This document shows positions 713 to 64,000 of a DNA stretch of 64,000 nucleotides, piece after piece. The notes under the pieces are model-generated. The model was not told the origin of the DNA. It searched no databases and worked only from the letters and a program-made list of their open reading frames with translations. Position 1 is the first letter of the stretch. The number at the start of each line of letters is the position of its first letter. The stretch lies in NCBI GenBank assembly GCA_001600415.1, contig BCJX01000020.1, positions 63,110 through 127,109 of the forward strand, written 5' to 3'. A program made the position numbers and the translations under genes. Source of the stretch: Pascua guehoae. Its lineage: Eukaryota; Basidiomycota; Tremellomycetes; Trichosporonales; Trichosporonaceae.

Positions 713-3700
713 CTCGTTGCTGATCTCTTTGCGGATCCTGCACAAGCTCCTCACCGAGTGCCGGCGCGACATTGGGCTGTTTGCGCACCAGGCGATGCGG
801 ATGATCTCGACTGCCGTCGACGTCAAGGTGTACCAAAAGAACGACACGGATCTCGAGGTGGCTGCGCGTGCGAGTGCATGCTTTGTCGCGTTTGCGACGT
901 ACACGGACGGAGTGGCGATTGGCGTCGACGACTCACTCACGACGACGTACCTCGGCGTCCTGGGCAAGTTTGCAAAGCTCGCGACGTTTACGCCGGCGGT
1001 GGAAAAGCCCGACGTCGAAGAGCAAAGCCGGGCACGCCTGATTGGCCTTGCGGCGCTCAACGGCGCGAGCAGCAGCGAGGGGGCGTTTAGCACGTCGACC
1101 GAGTTTCCGCGCCAGGTGCGCGTCATTGTGCCTGCGCTGCTGTCGCTCCTGTCCGAGCCCGACGTGCACGACCTCAAGGCCATGAGCGCAAAGCTCCGCC
1201 CCGGGTCGCCGTCGCCGTACCTCTCGGACGTGGCGGGCGGCGGCAAACGTCTTGACCGCCGCAAGTCGCTGCACGAGCACGTTCCCGGTGAAAAGGGCCC
1301 CGGCACCGAAGACGTGACTGAAGCCGCGTACCGGTGTCTGTACGACCTCGTGAGCGAGTGCACGCTCGGCCAGGCAAGCCACGTCCTCGACGTTGTCACG
1401 GCCTTCCTCGACCGCATGGGGTGGGAAAATGTCGAGCTCTACTGCTGGATCGCAGAGCGCATCACCGCTGCCATGCTCCTGCAGACACGCAGCATTGTTC
1501 CCGTGCGCCTCATCGAGGTCCTCGTCAACCTCCCAGACGACGGGCCGCCCACACACAAGCACTCGACTGTGCTCGCCATGATTACCGCAGTCCTCAGCTC
1601 CAACACGTCCCTCGTCGGCCTGCCCGTCACGGACATTCTGTCCAACCTCATTGCGGTCATTGTGCGCCGCGTCAGCCTCAACGCAAACGACGCGCTCCTG
1701 CCCGCGCTCGTCTCGTGCGTCGCCTCGCTCGGCACGCACATTTACTATGCCGACCAGATCAACGACATTGTCGAGGAGATTGCAGTCCAGATCCACGCGC
1801 TCCCCACGACCGACCCGGCGCGGCAGAATATCCTCCGGGTGCTCATCCACTGCATTACGGGCGTCATGACTGCTGCCGACGTTGGCGACGAGGCCGAGGC
1901 CGAGGCACGGTCCATTGAGGCAGGCCCCCGAGGGTCGGTCCAGCTCGAGCCAAAGGACAAGGGCAAAGGTACTGTTCCCGACTCGCCCGCGGTCGAGATT
2001 CCCCGCCGCGACCTCGGCCGCCGCAACCCCATCGCACCCGAGGTGTGGCAGGAGACACTCCCACTGCTGTGCGAGAGCACGTATGCTGTCCGCGCGGCGT
2101 ATGCGCGTGCCCTCGTCTTCTACCTCCAGACCGAAATGCCGCGCGACCGCCGCCCGCGCCCCGACGACCCCAACATTGTTCGCTTCTGCAACGCCCTCAA
2201 CGCGGCCATTTACACGCTCGCATTGAGCTCCGAGCTCGGCGCTGGAGAGGTCATTATGAGCCACCCGCCGACGCCGACGCCGCGTGATTCCCAGCACCAC
2301 ATTGACCGCATGACTGCAGCCAACGGCGCCAACGGGACGAGCGCCTCGCCGCCGAGCCCGACCCGAGGCATGTCGGTCGCAGGCGTGACATTCAACGTTG
2401 TCGAGCCCACACCCACAGACACGCCGGCGGGGACAATCACCGCCACAGCCCGCGCGGGCGGTGTCGGCAACGGTGTCTCGGGGACATCAACGCCCGGTTC
2501 CGGCAACGCTACCCCGCCGCCCAAGAAACCCATGCGCGGCGGGCGCCGCGTCTCGCTCCCGCTCAACCGCCTGCAGTCGGTCACGACCGAGCTCGCGTCG
2601 TTTGACAATGTTGCCACGCCATTCGACTATGCGGCCATCCTCAAGATTCTCGACGAGGTACACGCCGCCGTCCCCGTTGGCGCACTGACGACCGGCTTCC
2701 CGATGCTCCTCGCGCTCGACCGGGACGCGGCCGCCGAGCTCATCCGCCGCCCCGGCGACGCACGCACGGGTGCATGGGTCGTCGAGCGCAAGCGCGCGTG
2801 CCGCGAGACCATTGCGTACGCGTGGCGCCGCATCGCCGAGCGCTGGGGCATTGCCCCCGTCGTCGACCGCGCCGACCGCGCCATCCACTCGCTCCCAGAA
2901 CCATTTGCCGTCCCCGACTGGCCCGGGCGCGGAATCGACGACGACGTCCTGCCCCTCCCCGATGAGCCCGCCGCCTTCTTCCGCGACGTGACCGTCGGCG
3001 AGTCGTATGCCGCCACCCAGCCCCTCCTCGATCCAAACTTTCTCGTGCGCGCGTTTGCAGACGCCCCGCAGGTCGAGACGGGCGCGAGGGCAGACGCGCC
3101 CACGCTCGCGGCCAGGTTTGGCGCGCCGTGGACAGTCGAAATGGCCATTCGTGATTGTGAGTGTGTTTCGTGGAGCGCAGCGGTACCGCCGACATGACTC
3201 GTCGCTTGTGCCTATTCCATCGTGGTCTACGCCTTCTACTTTATTGCCCTGCCACTCCCAAGCCCCTCCCATGTCCCCTGTTCTCCACCCTCCCTCTCTC
3301 TCTCTCTCTCCTCCCTGGACACCACCCACGCCCTTGCCTATCTGTACACCTTACCCCTCCCCGCCTCCCCACCCACGCCGTTCCCCACTAACACCCAGCC
3401 GTTGAGCGCTTCCTCCCAAACACGGGCACATCCGAGCCCGCCCCGGCCCTGATGGCCATCTCGAACGCGTCATACGGCTCGTTTGGCCGCCCGACCTCGC
3501 GCGCAGTCGACGTCTCCGACCTCCGGGGCGCCCTCGCCGGCGACCCGGGCGCGTCACACTCGGCCCTCTCGTCCGCCGCCCAGTCCGTCGTCTCGGCAGC
3601 CAGCACCGCCCCAGGTGCCGGCCCGGCCCAGGTCCCCGGCGACGCGCGCACCCCGCCCCGCGCCCCGCGCACAAAGCCAGATGCCAAAGAGGTCCTCCAG

Positions 3701-30094: not shown

Positions 30095-30814
30095 NNNNNN
30101 NNNNNNNNNNNNNNNNNNNNNNNNNNNNNNNNNNNNNNNNNNNNNNNNNNNNNNNNNNNNNNNNNNNNNNNNNNNNNNNNNNNNNNNNNNNNNNNNNNNN
30201 NNNNNNNNNNNNNNNNNNNNNNNNNNNNNNNNNNNNNNNNNNNNNNNNNNNNNNNNNNNNNNNNNNNNNNNNNNNNNNNNNNNNNNNNNNNNNNNNNNNN
30301 NNNNNNNNNNNNNNNNNNNNNNNNNNNNNNNNNNNNNNNNNNNNNNNNNNNNNNNNNNNNNNNNNNNNNNNNNNNNNNNNNNNNNNNNNNNNNNNNNNNN
30401 NNNNNNNNNNNNNNNNNNNNNNNNNNNNNNNNNNNNNNNNNNNNNNNNNNNNNNNNNNNNNNNNNNNNNNNNNNNNNNNNNNNNNNNNNNNNNNNNNNNN
30501 NNNNNNNNNNNNNNNNNNNNNNNNNNNNNNNNNNNNNNNNNNNNNNNNNNNNNNNNNNNNNNNNNNNNNNNNNNNNNNNNNNNNNNNNNNNNNNNNNNNN
30601 NNNNNNNNNNNNNNNNNNNNNNNNNNNNNNNNNNNNNNNNNNNNNNNNNNNNNNNNNNNNNNNNNNNNNNNNNNNNNNNNNNNNNNNNNNNNNNNNNNNN
30701 NNNNNNNNNNNNNNNNNNNNNNNNNNNNNNNNNNNNNNNNNNNNNNNNNNNNNNNNNNNNNNNNNNNNNNNNNNNNNNNNNNNNNNNNNNNNNNNNNNNN
30801 NNNNNNNNNNNNNN
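30095..30814. other. Assembly gap (N run)
   Basis: 720 undetermined bases, followed immediately by a run of eight C. The content and true length are unknown. Confidence 1.
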
Positions 30815-53461: not shown

Positions 53462-55308
53462 ATGCGGTTACCATTGAGCACCTCGTCGCGATCATTGTTG
53501 CGCCAGGCGGCGCGTCGGGCACCCCTTGCTTCTGTTGTGCGCCGCGCGTCGACAGCTGCGGTGAGTTTTGCGGAGTGTCTTGGTGATAGAACTGGAGAGA
53601 AGAGTGTGGACCGCGTCGGCGGAGACTTTTCGCGGGCGAAGGGGTCTAGCAGCTGACAATCGTGCAGAGCGGTATCGCCGCCGTCGAGTCGCAGGTGACC
53701 ACGCTGCCCAACAAGGTGCGCGTGGCGACCGAGGCGATGCCGGGACACTTTCATGCGATTGGCGTCTATGTGGACGCGGGCAGCCGATACGAAAGCCAGC
53801 GGACGAGCGGAAGCTCTCACTTGCTCGATCGATTGGCGTTCAAGGTGAGTTGCGACTGGTCACGATCTCCAGCCCAGCTGACAAGTCCAAGAGCACAGAC
53901 AAGCACACGGACGAGGAGATGACGACACTCATCGACTCGTTGGGGTCGCAAATCTCGTGCTCGTCGTCGCGCGAGACAATCATGTACCAGTCGACCGTGT
54001 TCCCCCAATCGCTCGACCTGGCCATGTCGTTGCTGTCGTCGACTATTCTGCACCCTCTCTTGCTTCCCGAGGAACTCGAGGCGCAAAAGGCAGCAGCCGC
54101 CTATGAGATTCGCGAAATCTGGGCAAAGCCAGAACTCATTCTCCCCGAGATTCTCCACACGGTTGCGTTCAAGGACAACACCCTGGGCATGCCCCTGCTC
54201 TGCCCCGAGGCGCAGCTTGACGTCCTTGGCGAGTCGGAAATCCGAGGCTTTATGCGTGACTGGTACCGTCCCGAGCGTCTTGTCATTGCCGGTGTTGGTA
54301 TGGAGCACGAGCGATTGGTGGAACTTGCCGAGCGGTTCTTTGGCGATATCCCGGCCTCGACGGGTGTCGGTGCTCCAGCCAGCTCTCTGTACACGGGAGG
54401 TGCTGAGCACCCCGCTGGTGCCAAGAGCTTTGCCACCGTTTCGAACGCACCCACAGACGTCTCTGCAGACTACGCGCGTCTTGCCAGTGCTCGTGCCGTG
54501 TACACTGGTGGCGAGGAGTACATTCTCAAGCCCGAGGAGGAGTTTGTGCACCTCTATGTCGGCTTTGAGGGCTTGGGCGTGCACGACCCTGACATCGTGA
54601 GTAACCCCCGTGTTCGTTCTAGGCAGCGCTGACACGCCATAGTATGCGCTGGCCACATTGCAGACTCTCCTTGGCGGCGGTGGTTCGTTCTCTGCTGGTG
54701 GTCCCGGAAAGGGCATGTACACCCGCCTGTACACCAACGTCCTGAACAGGTACCACGCCGTCGACTACTGTGCTGGATTCCACCACTGCTATGCCGACAG
54801 CGGCCTGTTTGGCATTGCCATGTCGGTCTACCCTCAGTTTGCGGGTAGCGCTGCCAACGTGATTGCGCACCAACTCGACACGCTCACGCGCCCCCAAAAG
54901 GGTGGTATCACGGCCATTGAGCTCAGCCGCGCTAAGAACATGCTCAAGAGCCAGCTTGTCATGGCCTTGGAATCGCGTTTGACTGCGGTTGAAGGTGAGT
55001 CCGGCCGTGGCGTCGTGCACAACCTTGTCCGAGGTGCAACACGCTGACAACCAGACCTCGGTCGCCAGACCCAGATCCACGGCAAGAAGGTGCCAGTCGA
55101 GGAAATGTGCGCCAAGATTGACGCACTCACCGTCGAGGACCTGCACCGGACCGCGACACGTGTCCTGCGCCCCAGCTCGCGCACAACGCCGCTCAACTAT
55201 GGTCTTGGGTCGGGCGAGCCCACCATTGTCGCGCAGGGACAGGTTGAGGGCCTCGGTGACGTCAAGGCGACCCTCAAGGCGTGGGGACTTGGACGCCAAC
55301 CCTACTAG
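53462..55308 (+). CDS. MAS2: Mitochondrial processing peptidase alpha subunit
   Basis: Non-catalytic, substrate-recognising subunit of MPP, which removes matrix presequences. Five exons: 53462-53560, 53668-53844, 53892-54596, 54643-54994 and 55055-55308, giving 528 residues. Residues 1-33 form an Arg/Ser/Ala-rich presequence (MRLPLSTSSRSLLRQAARR) without acidic residues, fitting matrix import. The M16 fold starts at TTLPNKVRVATEAMPGHF. The position of the zinc motif HxxEH reads SSHLLDRLAFK, lacking the catalytic pattern as expected for alpha. The flexible glycine-rich loop GGGGSFSAGGPGKGMYTRL (about 338-356), diagnostic for MPP-alpha, is intact. The C-terminal part has DLGRQTQIHGKKVPVEEM. Exon 3 starts after an AAG acceptor (53891); a nearby CAG would break the frame. 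Confidence 0.95.
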
Positions 55309-55627: not shown

Positions 55628-57631
55628 TCAGCTATGCAAGGTATCACACGCTGCGTCTGGCCGAGATACCATGGCATGTGGCGACGTTATTACATGTCCA
55701 TATCGTCGTGGTCTCTGTGGCTTGTCAGCTAGGAAGGAACCCACCACGCACGCCCTGAACATCCAACACATCCCATCGGTATTGTGGTGGAAGTCGATCG
55801 CGGGTTGGTCAAGCTTTCTCCTCTTGCCGTTGGGACCTTTGAGCCAGCGGCTGGCGGGTGCGTCTTTGGGCCAGATGGTGTATGCCTGCAAGTGTCAGGT
55901 TTGTGACAACGGGAGGAGACGGAGCATGAGGCAGGCCAAGACGAGCGTAACGGCTGGATAACAAATAATTGAACCACGTACCCCGTATATTCCTCTTTGT
56001 GCACCTACACCACCGACTTGAACGCCACGGAAGACAAAGTTCCAGGTGTTGTCACCTTCAGAGAGGCTCTTGGATCCTGCGTCGGTGATGACTGCAATGT
56101 CCCACCTCACTTGCGGTGGGTCATCACTCGTCAGGTAAACGACACCACACAGGAAATCGTCACAGTCGGACAGGCTGTTGTAGAAGTACAGTGGAGGGAT
56201 GGAGTGCTCGTCAAACGGGTCAGGCGACAGGTCGGGTGGAAAGTCGGCAAGCAGCTCGAGGCCCGCAACACTGTTGGCCCTGCCCAGGTTGTCGGCATCA
56301 CTGCTGGCCGCACCAAACTCGTCGGTCCCGAAGCGCACAGCATAGACGTCGAGGATGGTTGCGAGGTCTTTGGCAGGGACAAAGTGGGGGTTGAAATCCA
56401 CGAACATGGGTGACTCGACATCTGCATTGTCGAAACCGCCAATGGATTGCAGAAAGTGCCAGTCACCCTCGATGGCCGCCCAGTCCCAGACCTGGCTCGG
56501 GCTCAATGTGCGGGGCCGTCGTCGTAGATTCGAGATCCCCCGGCCGCGTACGGCTTCGATACCACCCTTGATCGCGCGCATGGCAATGGCGTCAAACGTA
56601 TCGTCCCTATCAGGGTCAGGCAGTGACGGCCCGAGATGAGTTAGTCGATGCTCTGGAGCGGTCAGCTGCGGGTCGCGACGGATGGGACATACTCGCAAAG
56701 GCAATGTCAATGGCAATGCCCTTCCAATAGGTCTTGTCTGGCGGTGGTGGACCGGGTTCCACTTGGCCAAAGGCACGGTCACCATCCGGATCCAGTTGGC
56801 CAAAGGCACGGTCACCGTGGTAGGAGCGGAATGACAACCCGTCAATCGACCGTGTGAACCATGGTCCGCAGTGGAGCACTATGGCAAGCACATGGTCGAC
56901 AAGTGCCCTGTCGGGCGCATATTCGAGCGCACTGGCAAATTCGTCCGACTCTATGATGCGCCCAAGGATCGAAATGTTGCGCGATGGCTGTGGATAGGGC
57001 GGCAGATCGAGAAACAAGTCGAGGGTTGTGTCCAATATCCTTGGTGAGACCCTCTGCTCATTCAGCGTGCTGCCTTGACGGGTGCTTGCTTACCCCGTAT
57101 TTTGCATAGTACGAATTGTACCATTCTGAATCGCGCCCGGCCTCTACCACGCTTTCCGGTACTTTCAGCGCACTCATCTGTAGTACCCATTCAGCATGCC
57201 GCCTTGCCCCGACACGAACGTTTACTCACTCGTTGATAAACTGCGTTATGCCCATAGTACCCTGCGAGCACCTTCGACACATACGCACGGTCTATCACGC
57301 GCTGTCTCCAGTCAAAGCACGATCTCGGCTTGAGGTACGCGCAAGCATGGCGAGGATCATCGTAGAGTTTAAGATGTAGTTGTAGCCAAACATCATGGTG
57401 GCTCTGCGATTGCCATCCACATGGTCAGTCGCCATTCCATGCGCAAACTTACTTCCAGGACTCACGTATAATAGACTGTTGAAATGTCGACATGTCTGAG
57501 CAACATTGGCCAATGTTTTGATGTCGTCCAGACTTGCCAGTGTCAATATGAACACCTGGAGCTAGGCGGTGAGCGTTGACAGCTCACATCGGGGCGACAC
57601 ATACCTCATCGGGAAGGAGAATAAGAGACAT
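55628..57631 (-). CDS. F-box-like protein A (duplicated module, copy 1)
   Basis: Exons: 57631-57605, 57561-57466, 57403-57230, 57177-57094, 57053-56693, 56652-55982 and 55885-55628, giving 556 residues. The N-terminus has the F-box pattern: MSLILLPDELQVFILTLAS, then DDIKTLANVAQTCRHFNSLLY. F-box proteins usually recruit substrates to SCF ubiquitin ligases; that role is inferred. The rest matches gene B throughout: HHDVWLQLHLKLYDDPRHAC, LDLPPYPQPSRN, KTYWKGIAIDIAFA, RWDIAVITDA, FVFRGVQVGGVGAQRGIYG, TIWPKD. Differences from B include an extra exon (57177-57094), a tandem 33-bp duplication encoding DGDRAFGQ twice (56763-56816), and a C-terminus about 30 residues longer. It is convergent with MAS2 and divergent from protease C. 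No known family beyond the F-box-like start. Confidence 0.75.
56763..56816. repeat. 33-bp coding duplication in gene A
   Basis: TTGGCCAAAGGCACGGTCACC occurs exactly at 56763-56783 and 56796-56816. It encodes GDRAFGQ twice in gene A and is absent from gene B. Confidence 0.9.
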
Positions 57632-58754
57632 GTGGAGATCTATTGATTTCTTGGCCGGGACACTGTTACAGTTTATTTCCACGTCCATCGTGTATCTCAA
57701 AGAAAATGATGAAAGGTGCGGCACAGAGGCCACAATACGGGCAGATGACGTCTCATGGGGCCGGGACTACTTGGTTTTTCCGTACCCATCCCTTATAAGG
57801 CCCTCCTCTGAACGTTTCAGAGGCTAAGGGCCGTAGATGTTGGTGACAGTCTTGTTAGGAGTGCAGCAGAGCAGAGAGTCGTGTGGAGCATGCAGGTACA
57901 GTGTGGGGCAGATCTGCGGTGGCAGTGCAGCGGATTTGCAGTGCATGCAGTGCAGTGCGGACCAGTAGTACTGTAGTGCAGTGCATTGCAGTGCACCTGG
58001 CGTTAGGACAGGGCAAGCAGGCTGTGCACCGTGCAGTGCAACCTTCTTTGACGTTTCACACCGCGGGTACTAAAGGCACCCGTACATGCAACTGAGCTTG
58101 ACACCCGCTTCAGCTTCACTTCTGCTTTGATGCCTTCAGCGTTTCAATGCTGGAAGGGAAGGCTGTACCAAACTGCGTCGACATTGCACGGGAATGCACA
58201 GATAATACCGTTAACGGATGGTGACACCTACTCTCGTCAGCGCGTCCCTTGATGCAACCACATGTACATGTAAGTAGTGAAAGCTCCGGTGGGTGTGCAT
58301 GCACATCGACACAGGCTGGACGTTAGTTGCGTTTGCGAGCAAAACCCGCTACAGACTTACGATAAGCCAATGTTGGACAGGCCTTTTCACAGCCACAGAA
58401 CTCTAAAGCTCTTGGGCGGCAACCGTTGGCTGGTGCAGCCTTGGTCAATCACCACATCCGTTTAGCTACATGTAGAATATCTGTAGGGGAGCAGGGCTGA
58501 GACCCAAGGGAACCTGACAACATTCTATCCCGAGTGCCTCTCCTTACGCAGTAGTAAAGCGATGAACCACCCCTGTTTCGTGTTCCACCGCCCCGTCGAC
58601 TCTCCGCACCTGTCAGTTGACTGTGGTTATTCCTTCAACGACCACAGTGGTCTTAAGATGCTTTTAACCCCATGGCCACTCCTGTTCTTCCCGCCAAGTT
58701 CTTCCCGCCAACCCCCTCTTCCCCCTTGGTCTCTCACCGCCAAAGCCCATACCC
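57632..58754. promoter_or_regulatory. Shared divergent region of genes A and C
   Basis: 1123 bp between divergent start codons. A TTATAA word (57793-57798) lies 162 nt upstream of the gene A ATG. A GTGCAG-rich block (57861-58042) lies in the middle. No coding frame supported. Confidence 0.5.
57861..58042. repeat. Clustered GTGCAG/TGCATGCAG repeats
   Basis: The words GTGCAG, TGCAGTGC and TGCATGCAG recur more than ten times, with self-complementary TGCA cores, in the shared A/C promoter region. It could form hairpins or be a binding-site cluster. Confidence 0.7.
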
Positions 58755-60202
58755 ATGACCGCCATACACTCTGAAATATTCTTTCGTCCCCCACCCCCAA
58801 TGACTGCTGAGTCAACGGGACAGGGGAAGTTACGGAAACTTGATAGACTTCTGTGCCATAGAAGTGTTCCGTAAGTACAGTAGAAAATGCCTTGTAAATA
58901 TACTAACTGATTCATTTCTTAGGATCTACTCCGACCAAGAGTCGGGACACACACTCTCTGCCATTATCACTATTCGTGGCCACGAGTTTGAAGTTTTCGT
59001 CGACACAGGCGCTATCGACATGTTTCTAATCGGCGAGGGCTGCAAGTTCACCAATGGTCCAAATTCCGATGACGGCCAATCCATTGATTTCACACCACGC
59101 AGGTGGTTCAAACGTCGGCCCTCGAATCCTGCGAGAACTTGGGCCGCTCGGGGTTTCAATGACGGCACAAAGCTCAGCGGTTGGATAGCAAAAGACACGG
59201 TTCAACTCGACCTTGCCCCTCCCGTCCAGCAACAACTTCTTAGTACGTGGACAGCCTTGATTGACGATCTGATAACGTAGTGGATATTCGAAAAGCGCAT
59301 AACTGGCGCGACGACCCTGAAATATCCGGAATCCTGCCCTTCGGCCCTCCTGACTCTTCCGAAGCTCGAATGCCGTTTTGGTTACAGCTCTGTACTGTTC
59401 TGCAGAATCCAGTGTTTGGAATCTTCATTAGACCTCTGTCGAGGATTCCTCGGCCAGCACCAGAAGAAACAGAAGTAGAGGATAGGACAACGTCCGCGAA
59501 GTTACCTGCAGGGCAGTTGGTTGTCGGGTTAGTCAACCTAAGTGCATGGGTTTCCTGCTGGAGCTCACGAGACAGCGGCTATAACCATGACCTGATCAAC
59601 CGCATACCGGTGTATGACCCTGTGGGGGAGGTCTCCGCACCGGGACCATTAGACATCGAATCGTACCCAACGACATTAGGCTCGAAGAAGACGATCAAGT
59701 GGACAATCGGGTTGCGCCATATCACAGTCAACGGTTTCACGATACCGACGATGGTTTCAACACTAGCCTTGTTTGACACTGGCACGAGGTTCATCGCTGG
59801 GCCTCGTGATGTTGTTCGGGCCCTCTACTCTAAAGTTGGCGGACAATTGATCAAAACCAACGAGGGCAAGCGCGACGTCTACGTACTGCCCGACGGACAA
59901 CCTCTCAATGTTTCCTTCGCTTTCGGTGATAAACAAAAGGAATTCAGACTGCGACCAGAGGACACCATCGTGAGAGGGGACAAAGGCATTACCACAGGAA
60001 CAATATACGGTTCCAATACGTGAGCTCTCTTAAAAGCTTACGATGGATGTGCCAACGTTGTGCTGACCATGACAGGACTTACTGGCTTCTGGGTGTCGCA
60101 TTCCTCCAAAACTATTACACCATCTACCACTGGGACACAACTACCAACCAAGGGACAATCGGCCTGGGAGAGCTCTCTGCTTGGGCCAGGCATCATGCTT
60201 AG
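58755..60202 (+). CDS. Pepsin-like aspartic protease C (module copy 1)
   Basis: Predicted A1-fold endopeptidase. Exons: 58755-58870, 58923-59242, 59281-59527, 59576-60019 and 60076-60202, giving 417 residues. Catalytic motifs: VFVDTGAID with Asp66 and LALFDTGTRFIAGP with Asp295. Other fold landmarks are EISGILPFGPPD (pepsin GILGLG region), MPFWLQLCTVLQNPVFGIFI, and the C-terminal VAFLQNYYTIYHWDTTTN. The flap region GFNDGTKLSGWIAKDTVQL has Phe117 where pepsins have the flap Tyr. The usual W after DTGS is replaced by F (DMFLIG). There is no signal peptide: the start MTAIHSEIFFRPPPPM and GKLRKLDRLLCHRSVP are hydrophilic, and no propeptide is evident, so a cytosolic location is inferred. A second ATG at 58800 is possible. 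Confidence 0.82.
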
Positions 60203-60524
60203 TGTCACTTGGGATACGACCCCCACCCTCCCCCACCCCTTTTGCCGCGGCGGGGGCGCACCGGTCAACCCAATGCATGCCCATCGCACATCGTCAGAAT
60301 GACCACTGGTCCAATATGTAGCCCTACCCGATTGCGACAGCCAGTTTTGCATGGCACTTTGCGGACATTTACGGCACAATGTATTGTGTACACGGCATGG
60401 ACTTGTATGTATCTCCGATCGCACACCGCTCCACATTCGCCCTCCCCGCATCAGCCTCATGTACCTTGCAACCTGCACATACATCTCTGCGTGAATAGTC
60501 ATCTTAAAGGCTAGCGGCTGCGAG
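60203..60524. other. Convergent intergenic region, genes C/B
   Basis: 322 bp between converging stop codons at the junction of the two module copies. It has GC-rich CACCCC/CGGCGGGGG words and no gene. A duplication breakpoint probably lies here or near 62.3 kb. Confidence 0.5.
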
Positions 60525-62232
60525 TCAGCCAAGAACAAAGCGTGACACCCACGCCTTGAATAACCAGATCATTCCCTCGGTATCTTCAGAGAAGTCGATC
60601 TCGCGTTTGCTGAGTCGCCTCTTCTTCGCGCCCAGAACAAGCTTTCTTGGAAGCGGATCATTTGGCCACACTTTGTAATCCTGTGGGGTACGAGTTAGAC
60701 GACGCAAGGACAGTGACGAGAGAGAGAGACATACCCCGATAATACCTCTTCGAGCACCATTGCCACCGAGCTGGACGCCACGAAACATGTAGCTGTTCGA
60801 AGTGCTACGTCCCACAATGGCCATGTCCCATCGCACCTCGGGCGGGCTGTCGTTTGTGAGGTAAACGACACCACACAGAAACACATTGGTTGGGCGGGAT
60901 GGTCTGTTGTAGAAGTAGAGGCGAGGCAGTGGTGAATCCTCTGAGAGATCGGGGGAGAGAAAGGCTGGGAATTCGTATAGCAGCCGTCTACCGATTTCGC
61001 TATTCCCCGGTCTCGACATGTACACGTCCACGACGGCACTGATGTCATGGACAGGAATAAGTTTGCAAGCGTGATCCTCGAAATGGACAGGATCTCTAAG
61101 GTTCCCCGAGGTAGTCAGACCACCACGAGATTGAACGACGTGCCATTCGGCCTCGACGTTTGCCCAGTCCCAAACATCGCTGGGAGCGAGGGAAGCAGGC
61201 CGCTGTAGGCCAAGAATTCCCTGCCCACGGATGGCATCGATACCATCGCTCAACAGTAAGTGCACAGTAGACAAGTCGAGAACCTCGTGGTATTGCCACT
61301 CGGTACCCAGAAGTTGGTCCGCTAAAACCGTCAGGCAATGCTGCGCGTGTATGCACTTACCTGCGAACGCGATATCTATGGCAACGCCTCGCCAGTAGGT
61401 CCTGTCCGGTAGCGGCTGCTCTCCTTCCAAACTTGCATACTCGGCTAAGTTGGATCGCCAGTCACGGTGATAAGTCGCAAAAGAGCCCCAAGGATTCGAA
61501 TGCTCGCTGAACTGCTTGACGTGGAATAGGAGAGCCTCCAGATGGCTGACGGTATCGTCACTGGGGCCAACTATGAACATGTACGCAAATACGTCGGACG
61601 CAATCATGGTCTGAAGCGCGGTGACGTTACGCGACGGATGTGGATACGCTGGAAGGTCGAGATAGAGCTCGAGTGCGGTCCGCAGAATCCACGGCGCATT
61701 ACTTTTCTGTCCGCTTAGCAGCTGGCCTCACTGTGGGGAATGGAGTTGACGAACAATTGGGCACGGTCGTCCAGGGGAAGAGATGGGTGGGTCTCGGTAA
61801 GGTTCGACTAGGAATCCATGGTAGTGGCGTAAAGGTTCTCGCGGTGGGACGGAATGCGACGCAAGAAATGTTTCAGCCTGCTTTCGATGGATCACTCGCC
61901 GTCGCCAATCGAACGACGTTCGTGGGCTGGGAAACGCACACGCGAGCCGAGGGTCGTCATAGAGAATTAAATGTAGTTGAAGCCAAATATCGTGATTGTG
62001 CTGAAGCCACAAATGGCGTCAGAACGGTGAGGAGCTACACACTATCAATGTTGATACTCACGTTGATCATATCCCTGAAATGTTGACACGTTGAGGCCAC
62101 GCTCGCCAGCGTCGTCACATCGTCGAGCCCGGCAAGAGTGAGGATTGATACTTGGAGCTGTGTTCATAAGCATCAGAGAACCTTGGGAGTGATTCCGGTG
62201 CGTACCTCATCTGGAAGGAGGAGAAGAGACAT
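60525..62232 (-). CDS. F-box-like protein B (duplicated module, copy 2)
   Basis: Exons: 62232-62206, 62157-62062, 62000-61755, 61706-61361, 61321-60735 and 60680-60525, giving 485 residues. It is a paralogue of gene A with exons 1 and 2 of identical length (27 and 96 nt) and matching phases. It starts MSLLLLPDELQVSILTLAG, then LASVASTCQHFRDMI. Shared blocks are HDIWLQLHLILYDDPRLAC, LDLPAYPHPSRN, RTYWRGVAIDIAFA, RWDMAIVG, FRGVQLGGNGARRGIIG and KVWPND; it ends SRFVLG. In-frame TGA at 61730-61728 interrupts an otherwise open stretch. It is removed only if a 48-nt intron (61754-61707, donor GTTCGT, CTAAG near the acceptor) is spliced. If not, B is a nonsense-disrupted copy. A TTATAA (62273-62278) lies 41 nt upstream of the ATG. 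Confidence 0.7.
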
Positions 62233-63023
62233 TTGGTGTTACGATGAGCAATGGGAGAGGGGCCCAGCTGGGTTATAAGCTGGATCACAGGACTGCCGAC
62301 TTGCCTTCTTTACGTAAAGCCAGGGACAATGTAAAACGTCAGGGAACTCTCAGGGTTTTTGGTCTGTGCACAGCCTGGTGCCTGCTTCCTGGGCTGTGCA
62401 ACCTTCAAGGGAGGCGATAAGCCTGCTCTTCCCTTGTGGCGGTGAGTACTAGTGGGAGCACAGCAGTGCACAAGTGTACAGGGTGGTCTCATAGTACCGT
62501 AATGGCCTGCGGCTAGCAGTAGTGATAGACAGCCTTGGCAATTTGCTACAACTGGCAATACTGAAGGACGGCCTGGCAATTCACGACCGTAAAACCTCAT
62601 GCGTGCGTCTTCCAATTTTCAAGCCACGACAGCACCCCCCCTGGTGGCTGTGTATGGCTGTGTCCAGCCCATGCCATCTGACGATTGCCACGCACTGCCA
62701 GTGGTCCCGGACAGACCTAGGCCGGGGCTAACAGAGTTGAGGTGCTGATGATGAAACGCAGACACCGCCCGCCCCTGCGGGTTCCACAAAGCGGTGAGAG
62801 TTGGGTTTCGTCGTGACCACCTCGTGCACACAGCTGTGAGGGTAGCGTTTCAGCATCACCGCCTCGTGAACTTAGAGGTCAGCGACTAGGAGATGAACCT
62901 CTCACTGATAAATGATTTAAACGACTGAAGGAGGGTAGTCTTGTCCCGCACACTCCCACTTGACCCCCTCCATCGGACGTCTATTACCCAAGCTTTTTGC
63001 CGACCACTACACAATTATTCAAC
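62233..63023. promoter_or_regulatory. Shared divergent region of genes B and D
   Basis: 791 bp between divergent start codons, the counterpart of the A/C region. It contains the TTATAA for gene B (62273-62278) and several GCACAGC/GCAGTGC words, but no dense GTGCAG array like that in the A/C region. Confidence 0.5.
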
Positions 63024-64000
63024 ATGCCACCCAGTAGTTCCCCCCTCTACTATATCCCATCGCCTGAACGTCAGGAGACTGCAGTCCAACGCGGGAAGTT
63101 GAGCAAGATGCTGTGTCATAGAAGCGTACAGTAAGCAGGACCCAACATTTGATGTACTGATAGCAGAATGCTCCTTGACGAAACCGAGCTCTCTCTGTCA
63201 ACCATGATCACAATTCGCAACGAACAATTCGAGGTTTACGTGGACACCGGCTCGAAAAACTTGTTTCTCCTGGGTCAAGGGTGCAAGTTTTATACGGATC
63301 AACATCGTATCGATTTTTCACCGACAAAGTGGTTTGCACGCCGTCGCTCAGATCCGGAACGAGACGAGACTGCAGGTGGAGAGTACATTAGCAGGATAAT
63401 AATTCAAGGAAAGCATGCTTCAGAAACTGTACAGCTTGGTTTGGGGGAACCGATAGCTCATCAACCCATTCGTTAGTCCTCTTTAGACAAGAATTTGCGA
63501 TGTGGCTGATGTTTCCTCAGTGGATGTTCGACAAGCCAGCAATTGGCGCTACGAGCAGCCAGAAATTTCTGGTGTTCTTCCTATGGGACCTCCAGACCCT
63601 CCTGGGTGGGAATCGCCTGTTCCTTTCTGGCATCGTGTCTGCATGGCGCATGGGAACCCCACATTTGGGGTTTTCATACGCCCTCTCAGGCGAATGGCTC
63701 ACCCATCTACGGTGACATCGGAAGGAACCGATGGCATCGATGGCCGCACTGTCACATCAACGGTTGCAGTAGCTACCCAAAGGAAGCTCCCTGCCGGGGA
63801 GCTCATGACAGGGTAAGCAAATCTTGGCTTCATTTAAACCCACAGAGCCCATGCTTAACTGATCAGAGGCTATAATACCGATCTAATCATGCCGAAGAAG
63901 GACAGGCATGGCCAAATCATCTCGGGCCAATTCGAAATTACGTGGTTTCGGACGACGCTTTCGGGTAACGCGATGCCCCGTTGGGGTATTGACTTGCAGC
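63024..64000 (+). CDS. Pepsin-like aspartic protease D (module copy 2), 3' partial
   Basis: Visible exons: 63024-63130, 63167-63471, 63521-63812 and 63867-64000 (runs off the window), about 279 residues. Same splice phases as protease C at every shared junction. N-terminus MPPSSSPLYYIPSPER, then GKLSKMLCHRSVQ, hydrophilic and without a signal peptide, as in C. The first catalytic motif is VYVDTGSKNLF with Asp62. The pepsin-like blocks EISGVLPMGPPD and VPFWHRVCMAHGNPTFGVFI are present, and GYNTDLIM begins the second half. The flap region reads AGGEYISRIIIQGKHASETVQL, with a Tyr but without the G-S/T-G turn seen in C, so activity is uncertain. The second DTG lies beyond the window. Confidence 0.78.

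Follow-up and report, generated by a model that had tools for sequence, protein, structure and literature searches.

What keeps an F-box gene and an aspartic protease gene together as neighbours? The question is raised by a 64,000-bp stretch of the Pascua guehoae genome (assembly GCA_001600415.1, contig BCJX01000020.1, here C20, positions 63,110 to 127,109; the window), whose right end contains two divergently transcribed gene pairs, A/C and B/D, each composed of a leftward-transcribed F-box-like gene (A or B) and a rightward-transcribed gene for a pepsin-family aspartic protease (C or D). We find that A/C and B/D belong to a set of at least 20 copies of one two-gene module in this genome. There is very little doubt that the module is real and has been copied and kept as a unit, and the two genes are probably functionally linked.

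Two copies of a divergent gene pair

Gene A (55628-57631, minus strand) codes for an F-box-like protein of 556 residues in seven exons (57605-57631, 57466-57561, 57230-57403, 57094-57177, 56693-57053, 55982-56652, and 55628-55885), and gene B (60525-62232, minus strand) for one of 485 residues in six (62206-62232, 62062-62157, 61755-62000, 61361-61706, 60735-61321, and 60525-60680). Both pass the Pfam cut-off of 24.3 bits for PF12937 F-box-like (28.5 bits for A and 27.4 for B), in agreement with the F-box-type label given to them in a preliminary description of this DNA. The likeness throughout that was noted at the same time corresponds to 42% identity (BLASTP, 527 columns, E 5e-122), and the first exons of 27 and 96 nt are present in both hand-placed spliced models. 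The intron phases are 0,0,0,1,0 in B and 0,0,0,0,1,0 in A, i.e. A has one extra phase-0 intron.

Genes C (58755-60202) and D (63024-64504), both on the plus strand, code for proteins of 417 and 431 residues in five exons each (58755-58870, 58923-59242, 59281-59527, 59576-60019, and 60076-60202 in C; 63024-63130, 63167-63471, 63521-63812, 63867-64331, and 64378-64504 in D). The 3′ end of D is at C20:127613, 504 bases outside the window. Both pass the cut-off of 19.9 bits for PF00026 (Asp, the A1 pepsin family), with 65.5 bits for C and 46.2 for D, and they are 41% identical (BLASTP, 438 columns, E 1e-104). As first described, they share their splice phases (2,1,2,2 in each model) and a GKL-K..LCHRSV block. 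Both DTG motifs are intact in the two proteins, reading VFVDTG and LFDTG in C, and hydropathy gives no signal peptide at either N-terminus. The order and orientation of A(-)/C(+) and B(-)/D(+) are the same, and the proposed duplication of the pair stands.

These models were built from homology and splice signals, with exon boundaries set by hand at GT-AG sites. Our own spliced aligner, given C alone as query, recovered D with four introns matching the hand model; given A alone it placed the third intron of B elsewhere and read through the fourth; and with a family profile it returned 0,0,0,1,0 for B, together with models of A, C, and D that are unlike the hand models in variable stretches. Because the aligner and hand models disagree there, the overall structure is more secure than the positions of exon ends in those stretches.

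Recurrence and joint copying of the pair

The source genome (33.6 Mb in 28 contigs), to which all recurrence counts refer, was searched with B, C, and PF00026, and the exon matches were grouped into 42 F-box-type and 48 protease clusters; a second F-box query of the same genome added no clusters, and later queries brought the protease clusters to 51. A first pass gave 17 protease clusters lying divergent to an F-box-type cluster at a distance of 4 kb or less. Later single-protein queries added three protease loci at E < 0.01 (C12:778k, C1:1509k, and C16:870k), each divergent beside an F-box gene earlier scored as unpaired, and two weaker matches, C2:3705k (E 0.014) and C6:559.7k (E 0.012), that have no F-box member near. 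There is thus a total of 20 divergent (head-to-head) pairs on 11 contigs, with 358-1555 bp from the F-box start to the first modelled protease base in 19 of them and 3.8 kb in one, and an additional adjacent pair is arranged tail to tail at C13:497-500k. Random placement of 42 and 50 clusters (5000 trials), which takes no account of pairs descending from one another by copying, yields a mean of 0.17 divergent pairs and a maximum of 3. This shows that the F-box/protease association is not due to chance. The preliminary description had proposed that the whole module was copied and that the partners belong together, an idea to be given up if homologues proved to be scattered without recurrent pairing; within this genome the 20 divergent pairs, and the matching trees of the two families, uphold it.

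Trees were constructed from 32 F-box-type and 29 protease proteins and compared over 20 pairs (19 divergent pairs and the tail-to-tail pair, with the C16:870k pair left out). They have nine of 17 splits in common (permutation mean 0.26, maximum 4, in 20000 permutations), and the distances in the two families correlate at 0.75, against a permutation maximum of 0.43. Six two-member clades are common to both trees; one consists of the two window pairs, and the others are C1:1511k with C8:574k, C1:96k with C20:135k, C1:1122k with C7:535k, C15:622k with C4:1381k, and C16:717k with C20:186k. Support for the deeper branches is weak in many cases, and the median end branches are 0.9 and 0.97 in the two trees.

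Matching trees are also what joint copying alone predicts, and chance neighbours that were duplicated jointly and never parted would be functionally unlinked passengers. Local tandem copying is in keeping with such passive hitch-hiking, with three pairs and a fragment inside 20 kb of C20, and an F-box gene, a protease gene, and an F-box gene in succession at C7:528-536 kb. We nonetheless regard this explanation as very unlikely, as linkage, orientation, and short spacing have been kept on 11 contigs despite end branches of about one change per site, no third gene recurs in the short flanks compared, and a promoter word at a narrow position (see below) persists in nine of the 20 pairs.

The flanks, most of which are shorter than 1.5 kb, were compared across contigs with family-matching stretches masked and same-contig comparisons left out; for three pairs (C17, C1:1511k, and C16:872k) the stretch compared on the left included the pair itself. 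These comparisons between contigs revealed no third gene accompanying the pairs. Of the 18 matches, 15 were listed. Thirteen of these come from a single DNA repeat, and the other two, both weak (E 8e-6 and 6e-5), may be F-box genes read antisense; copying of a larger segment was rejected on this basis. The repeat is common to the C20:190k and C7:856k flanks, matches in several reading frames, and is possibly a dispersed one. A hybrid or doubled genome was also rejected as the source of the copies, an exon of the presumed M16-peptidase-like gene next to A being single copy (one marker only).

Pairing status is readable for 23 of the 42 F-box clusters. A protease adjoins 21 of these; the remaining two are the fragment beside D and C7:528686, which has an internal stop in its model and no protease in the 2.2 kb upstream. 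The upstream flanks of 13 F-box genes scored as unpaired (368-1319 bp each) gave no protease signal above a reversed control, in a test that is weak in that the flanks are short and two of the 13 (C12 and C16:872k) were later found to be paired. An early inference, that loss is more frequent among the proteases than among the F-box genes, became less secure once three of the 'unpaired' F-box genes proved to have partners missed by Pfam. The 51 protease clusters divide into 21 paired and 30 unpaired. Nine of the 30 were modelled; eight of these fall outside both of the groups, one larger and one smaller, that the paired proteases form on the tree, and C1:522k falls inside the larger group, with F-box signal absent from the 2.6 kb upstream of it. 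Hence the two paired groups have 22 modelled members, of which 21 adjoin an F-box gene and C1:522k is the sole solitary one, in a count that covers nine of 30 unpaired clusters, so that further solitary proteases are possible among the other 21. A 5.8-billion protein set queried with C and D and with A and B gave no matches at E <= 0.001.

What may link the partners

The F-box lies near the N-terminus of the family, and PF12937 is matched at E <= 1 in 15 of the 16 members given (best 8e-10). In automatic models all 30 full-length F-box-type genes open with two phase-0 introns, and nine have exactly the phases 0,0,0,1,0. The C-terminal part is conserved, with the motifs WDWA-x-V, LT-x-D-x-PPE-x-RW, and GVQ-x-GG-x-GA-x-RGVFG, and a scan of 16 members gave no Pfam match to it at E <= 1; the likeness to the nearest solved structure, FBXO31 (5vzt), is weak (E 0.014) and confined to the F-box. 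A single-sequence AlphaFold prediction, made from the B reading frame through two in-frame introns, had a mean predicted local distance difference test score of 33 and was discarded.

PF00026 is present in all 16 paired proteases given (of 21 paired), and a profile of these 16 matches solved pepsins end to end (positions 9-330, E 1.7e-45 to 6r5h); a bilobal pepsin domain is accordingly the predicted fold of the paired proteases. The nearest solved structures are 6r5h, 6r61, and 6r6a, of which 6r61 is named Major aspartyl peptidase 1, and we take all three to be Cryptococcus May1. An abstract calls this group a secreted protease of Cryptococcus neoformans. Relative to these pepsin A1 relatives, the larger paired group is distinguished by the lack of a signal peptide in 11 of the 15 proteins modelled and the paired members as a whole by a changed D[TS]G motif in six of 21; both motifs are intact in the other 15, and both aspartates are present in 19. 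Intron phases end in 1,2,2 in 16 of the 21 paired automatic models, a pattern that is not diagnostic of paired proteases because three of nine unpaired ones have it.

The first exon was looked for in 19 paired proteases, and signal peptides were judged by hydropathy rather than with a trained predictor. The four members of the smaller group (C15:624k, C4:1384k, C17:797k, and C7:863k) all have a strongly hydrophobic N-terminus that scores as a signal peptide, whereas 11 of the 15 examined in the larger group (C, D, and nine others) are clearly without one and four are ambiguous (C1:1120k, C7:532k, C16:720k, and C20:189k). The initial label of cytosolic protease therefore suits C, D, and those nine relatives, and does not extend to the four sister pairs. 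Several larger-group proteases have an LPL-like stretch similar to the beginning of pepsin propeptides. The other eight proteases stand apart from both paired groups (support 92/89 and 94/85 in two trees), and at least four of them have a hydrophobic N-terminus, judged by eye in translated frames; with these as outgroup, the simplest reading would be that the signal peptide was lost once, in the ancestor of the larger group.

The intergenic regions of the pairs contain candidate regulatory words. ATCACGTG, an E-box word, is present in nine of 20 regions where 0.77 are expected, and no 8-mer reaches more than seven in 60 shuffled sets. All nine sites are 102-261 bp from the F-box start, and occurrence within 80-290 bp, a range chosen after the sites were seen, has a shuffle mean of 0.15 and a maximum of 2 (300 shuffles). 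In these intergenic regions the word has a density of 0.46 per kb, compared with 0.02-0.07 per kb in other DNA, most of it coding. Of 12 other F-box genes examined, only the tail-to-tail C13 gene has an exact ATCACGTG in the 300 bp next to its start. The nine occurrences are not nine independent events because related pairs have common ancestry. A second word, ATGAAAC, is present in 10 of 20 regions (shuffle mean 2.4, maximum 9, in 300 shuffles that take no account of the number of words examined), in four of those 12 other F-box genes, and in none of 10 other protease upstream regions. Five of the paired sites read ATGAAACA, which we take to resemble the yeast Ste12 pheromone element, and we treat the enrichment as a lead only.

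In the window, the A/C intergenic region (57632-58754; 1123 bp from start codon to start codon), presumed to be a shared promoter region, contains no exact ATCACGTG; imperfect TGCAGTGCA repeats are seen by eye at 57895-58050. The B/D region (62233-63023; 791 bp) contains one ATGAAAC and no exact ATCACGTG. The presence of ATCACGTG in nine pairs, neither window pair among them, gives indirect support to possible co-expression of the partners.

Co-expression would not call for contact between the two proteins. A bidirectional promoter could respond to one signal (nutrient, pH, or mating state), with the protease acting extracellularly or in a compartment and the F-box protein adjusting another target in the same response. 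Both promoter words fit such a co-regulated pair, as do the signal peptides kept in four pairs and the description, in the abstract noted above, of the nearest solved proteases as secreted. However, the larger-group proteases clearly without a signal peptide are not exported by that route, two copies minus catalytic aspartates are still paired, and the ATGAAAC excess is weak, with 10 regions against a shuffle maximum of 9. We consider co-regulation without contact to be somewhat doubtful.

We tentatively favour a reading, plausible if short of an even chance, in which the F-box protein controls its own co-expressed partner through an SCF ubiquitin ligase. As a predicted SCF substrate receptor it would recognise its own protease partner, and this recognition would set how abundant the partner becomes. 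Loss of the signal peptide in the larger group would have placed the protease in the same compartment as the F-box protein, and every copy may then have diverged as a matched lock and key. The recurrent divergent pairing, the matching trees, the PF12937 matches, and the positioned ATCACGTG word speak for this reading, and kss/fars-3 (below) provides its best precedent.

Several observations weigh against this reading. Joint copying of linked genes suffices for the matching trees, which do not thereby show binding, and exact ATCACGTG is absent in 11 of 20 pairs, including both in the window. In four pairs the protease has a signal peptide, and a cytosolic F-box protein could encounter it only prior to export or following its retrieval or uptake. 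Two of the 21 paired proteases are without catalytic aspartates (one missing in C12:778k and both in C1:1509k) and four more have altered motifs; control of proteolysis is therefore not the function of every copy. Four of the 21 models have an internal stop (C15:658k, C20:189k, C7:863k, and C1:1509k), one also being frameshifted, and these are either model errors or decayed genes. Finally, pairing status was read for only 23 of 42 F-box clusters, and one of these, the C7:528686 gene, has no protease signal in the 2.2 kb searched upstream.

Two known systems offer comparisons. In the S-RNase/SLF self-incompatibility of plants, a secreted cytotoxic RNase T2 is linked to many F-box genes at a single multi-gene locus. 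The layout is comparable to that of the four pairs with a secreted protease, but the fungal enzyme is an aspartic protease instead of a T2 ribonuclease and the genes form about 20 dispersed one-to-one pairs. PMC12680543, which mentions linked cytotoxic enzymes and F-box proteins, describes the kss/fars-3 elements of Caenorhabditis tropicalis, in which the F-box antidotes act through SCF to degrade the toxins linked to them, the module is repeatedly duplicated, the antidote phylogeny mirrors that of the toxins, and 30 KSL proteins are reported. The fungal pairs are similar in the tight linkage of an F-box gene to its partner, the duplication of the module, the matching phylogenies, and the larger genome-wide set of related F-box-type genes. 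They differ in that the partner is an A1 protease, whereas the nematode toxins derive from a tRNA synthetase subunit (a fars-3 paralogue) and the KSS C-terminus is a solenoid, and in the strong divergence of the fungal copies. Toxicity and SCF-mediated degradation are demonstrated for kss/fars-3; the fungal pairs are known here from sequence alone. Among the matches listed, the open-licence literature contained no description of an F-box/A1 protease gene pair and no fungal system of a linked F-box gene and partner.

The parallel suggests a poison-antidote or self/non-self module, in which the protease-like protein would be harmful and the linked F-box protein would remove it, protecting carriers and leaving non-carriers exposed, with the copies diversifying to give specific pairs. 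The anatomy agrees with that of kss/fars-3, and just one of the 22 modelled members of the paired groups is a solitary protease (C1:522k). Such a module is nevertheless unlikely, given the long median end branches, the signal peptides in four pairs, and an asymmetry in solitary members that amounts to one examined case per side, with an internal stop in the solitary F-box model. We think it quite unlikely that the full version applies, in which about twenty fungal poison-antidote or self/non-self modules would each encode an intracellular pepsin-like poison or recognition token that has lost its signal peptide, degraded via SCF by the cognate, divergently transcribed F-box protein only, under an E-box switch and possibly the Ste12-like ATGAAACA at mating.

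Linked F-box/partner pairs are the basis of selfish elements in nematodes and of self-incompatibility in plants, and about twenty dispersed matched pairs in one fungus would make F-box/partner specificity testable in a single organism. A pepsin lineage that seems to have shed its signal peptide and still lies beside an F-box gene also offers a concrete route from a secreted to an intracellular protein.

Local copies and neighbouring genes

Extending the search past 64 kb, as originally suggested, reveals further copies on the same contig. An F-box-type fragment 3′ of D (C20:127998-128264, minus strand; L010 about 999-1265) includes the first exons only, with 55 aligned residues; it appears to be a broken third copy in the local cluster, and two ATCACGTG matches are within 1.2 kb upstream. 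A third complete divergent pair is located at C20:134812-138614 (L010/L011), and is nearest on the tree to the C1:96-100 kb pair, not to its neighbours. Between the window pairs and this third pair is a gene (L010 about 1993-3259) that, by eye, we take to be Pirin/cupin-like.

At C7:528686-536312 an F-box gene, an opposite-strand protease gene, and a second F-box gene are consecutive, and the C7:528686 F-box gene is sister to that at C1:1122k. The right flank of the C1 pair at 1120-1123.5 kb contains a minus-strand stretch of 35 residues that is 66% identical to the protease of the C7:532k pair and is possibly the remnant of another copy.

On the other side of the window pairs, a plus-strand gene at about 53565-55308 ends 320 bases from gene A, and is presumably M16-peptidase-like. 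Elsewhere in the window, a run of about 720 N at 30095-30814 accounts for an apparent drop in GC at 30-32 kb.

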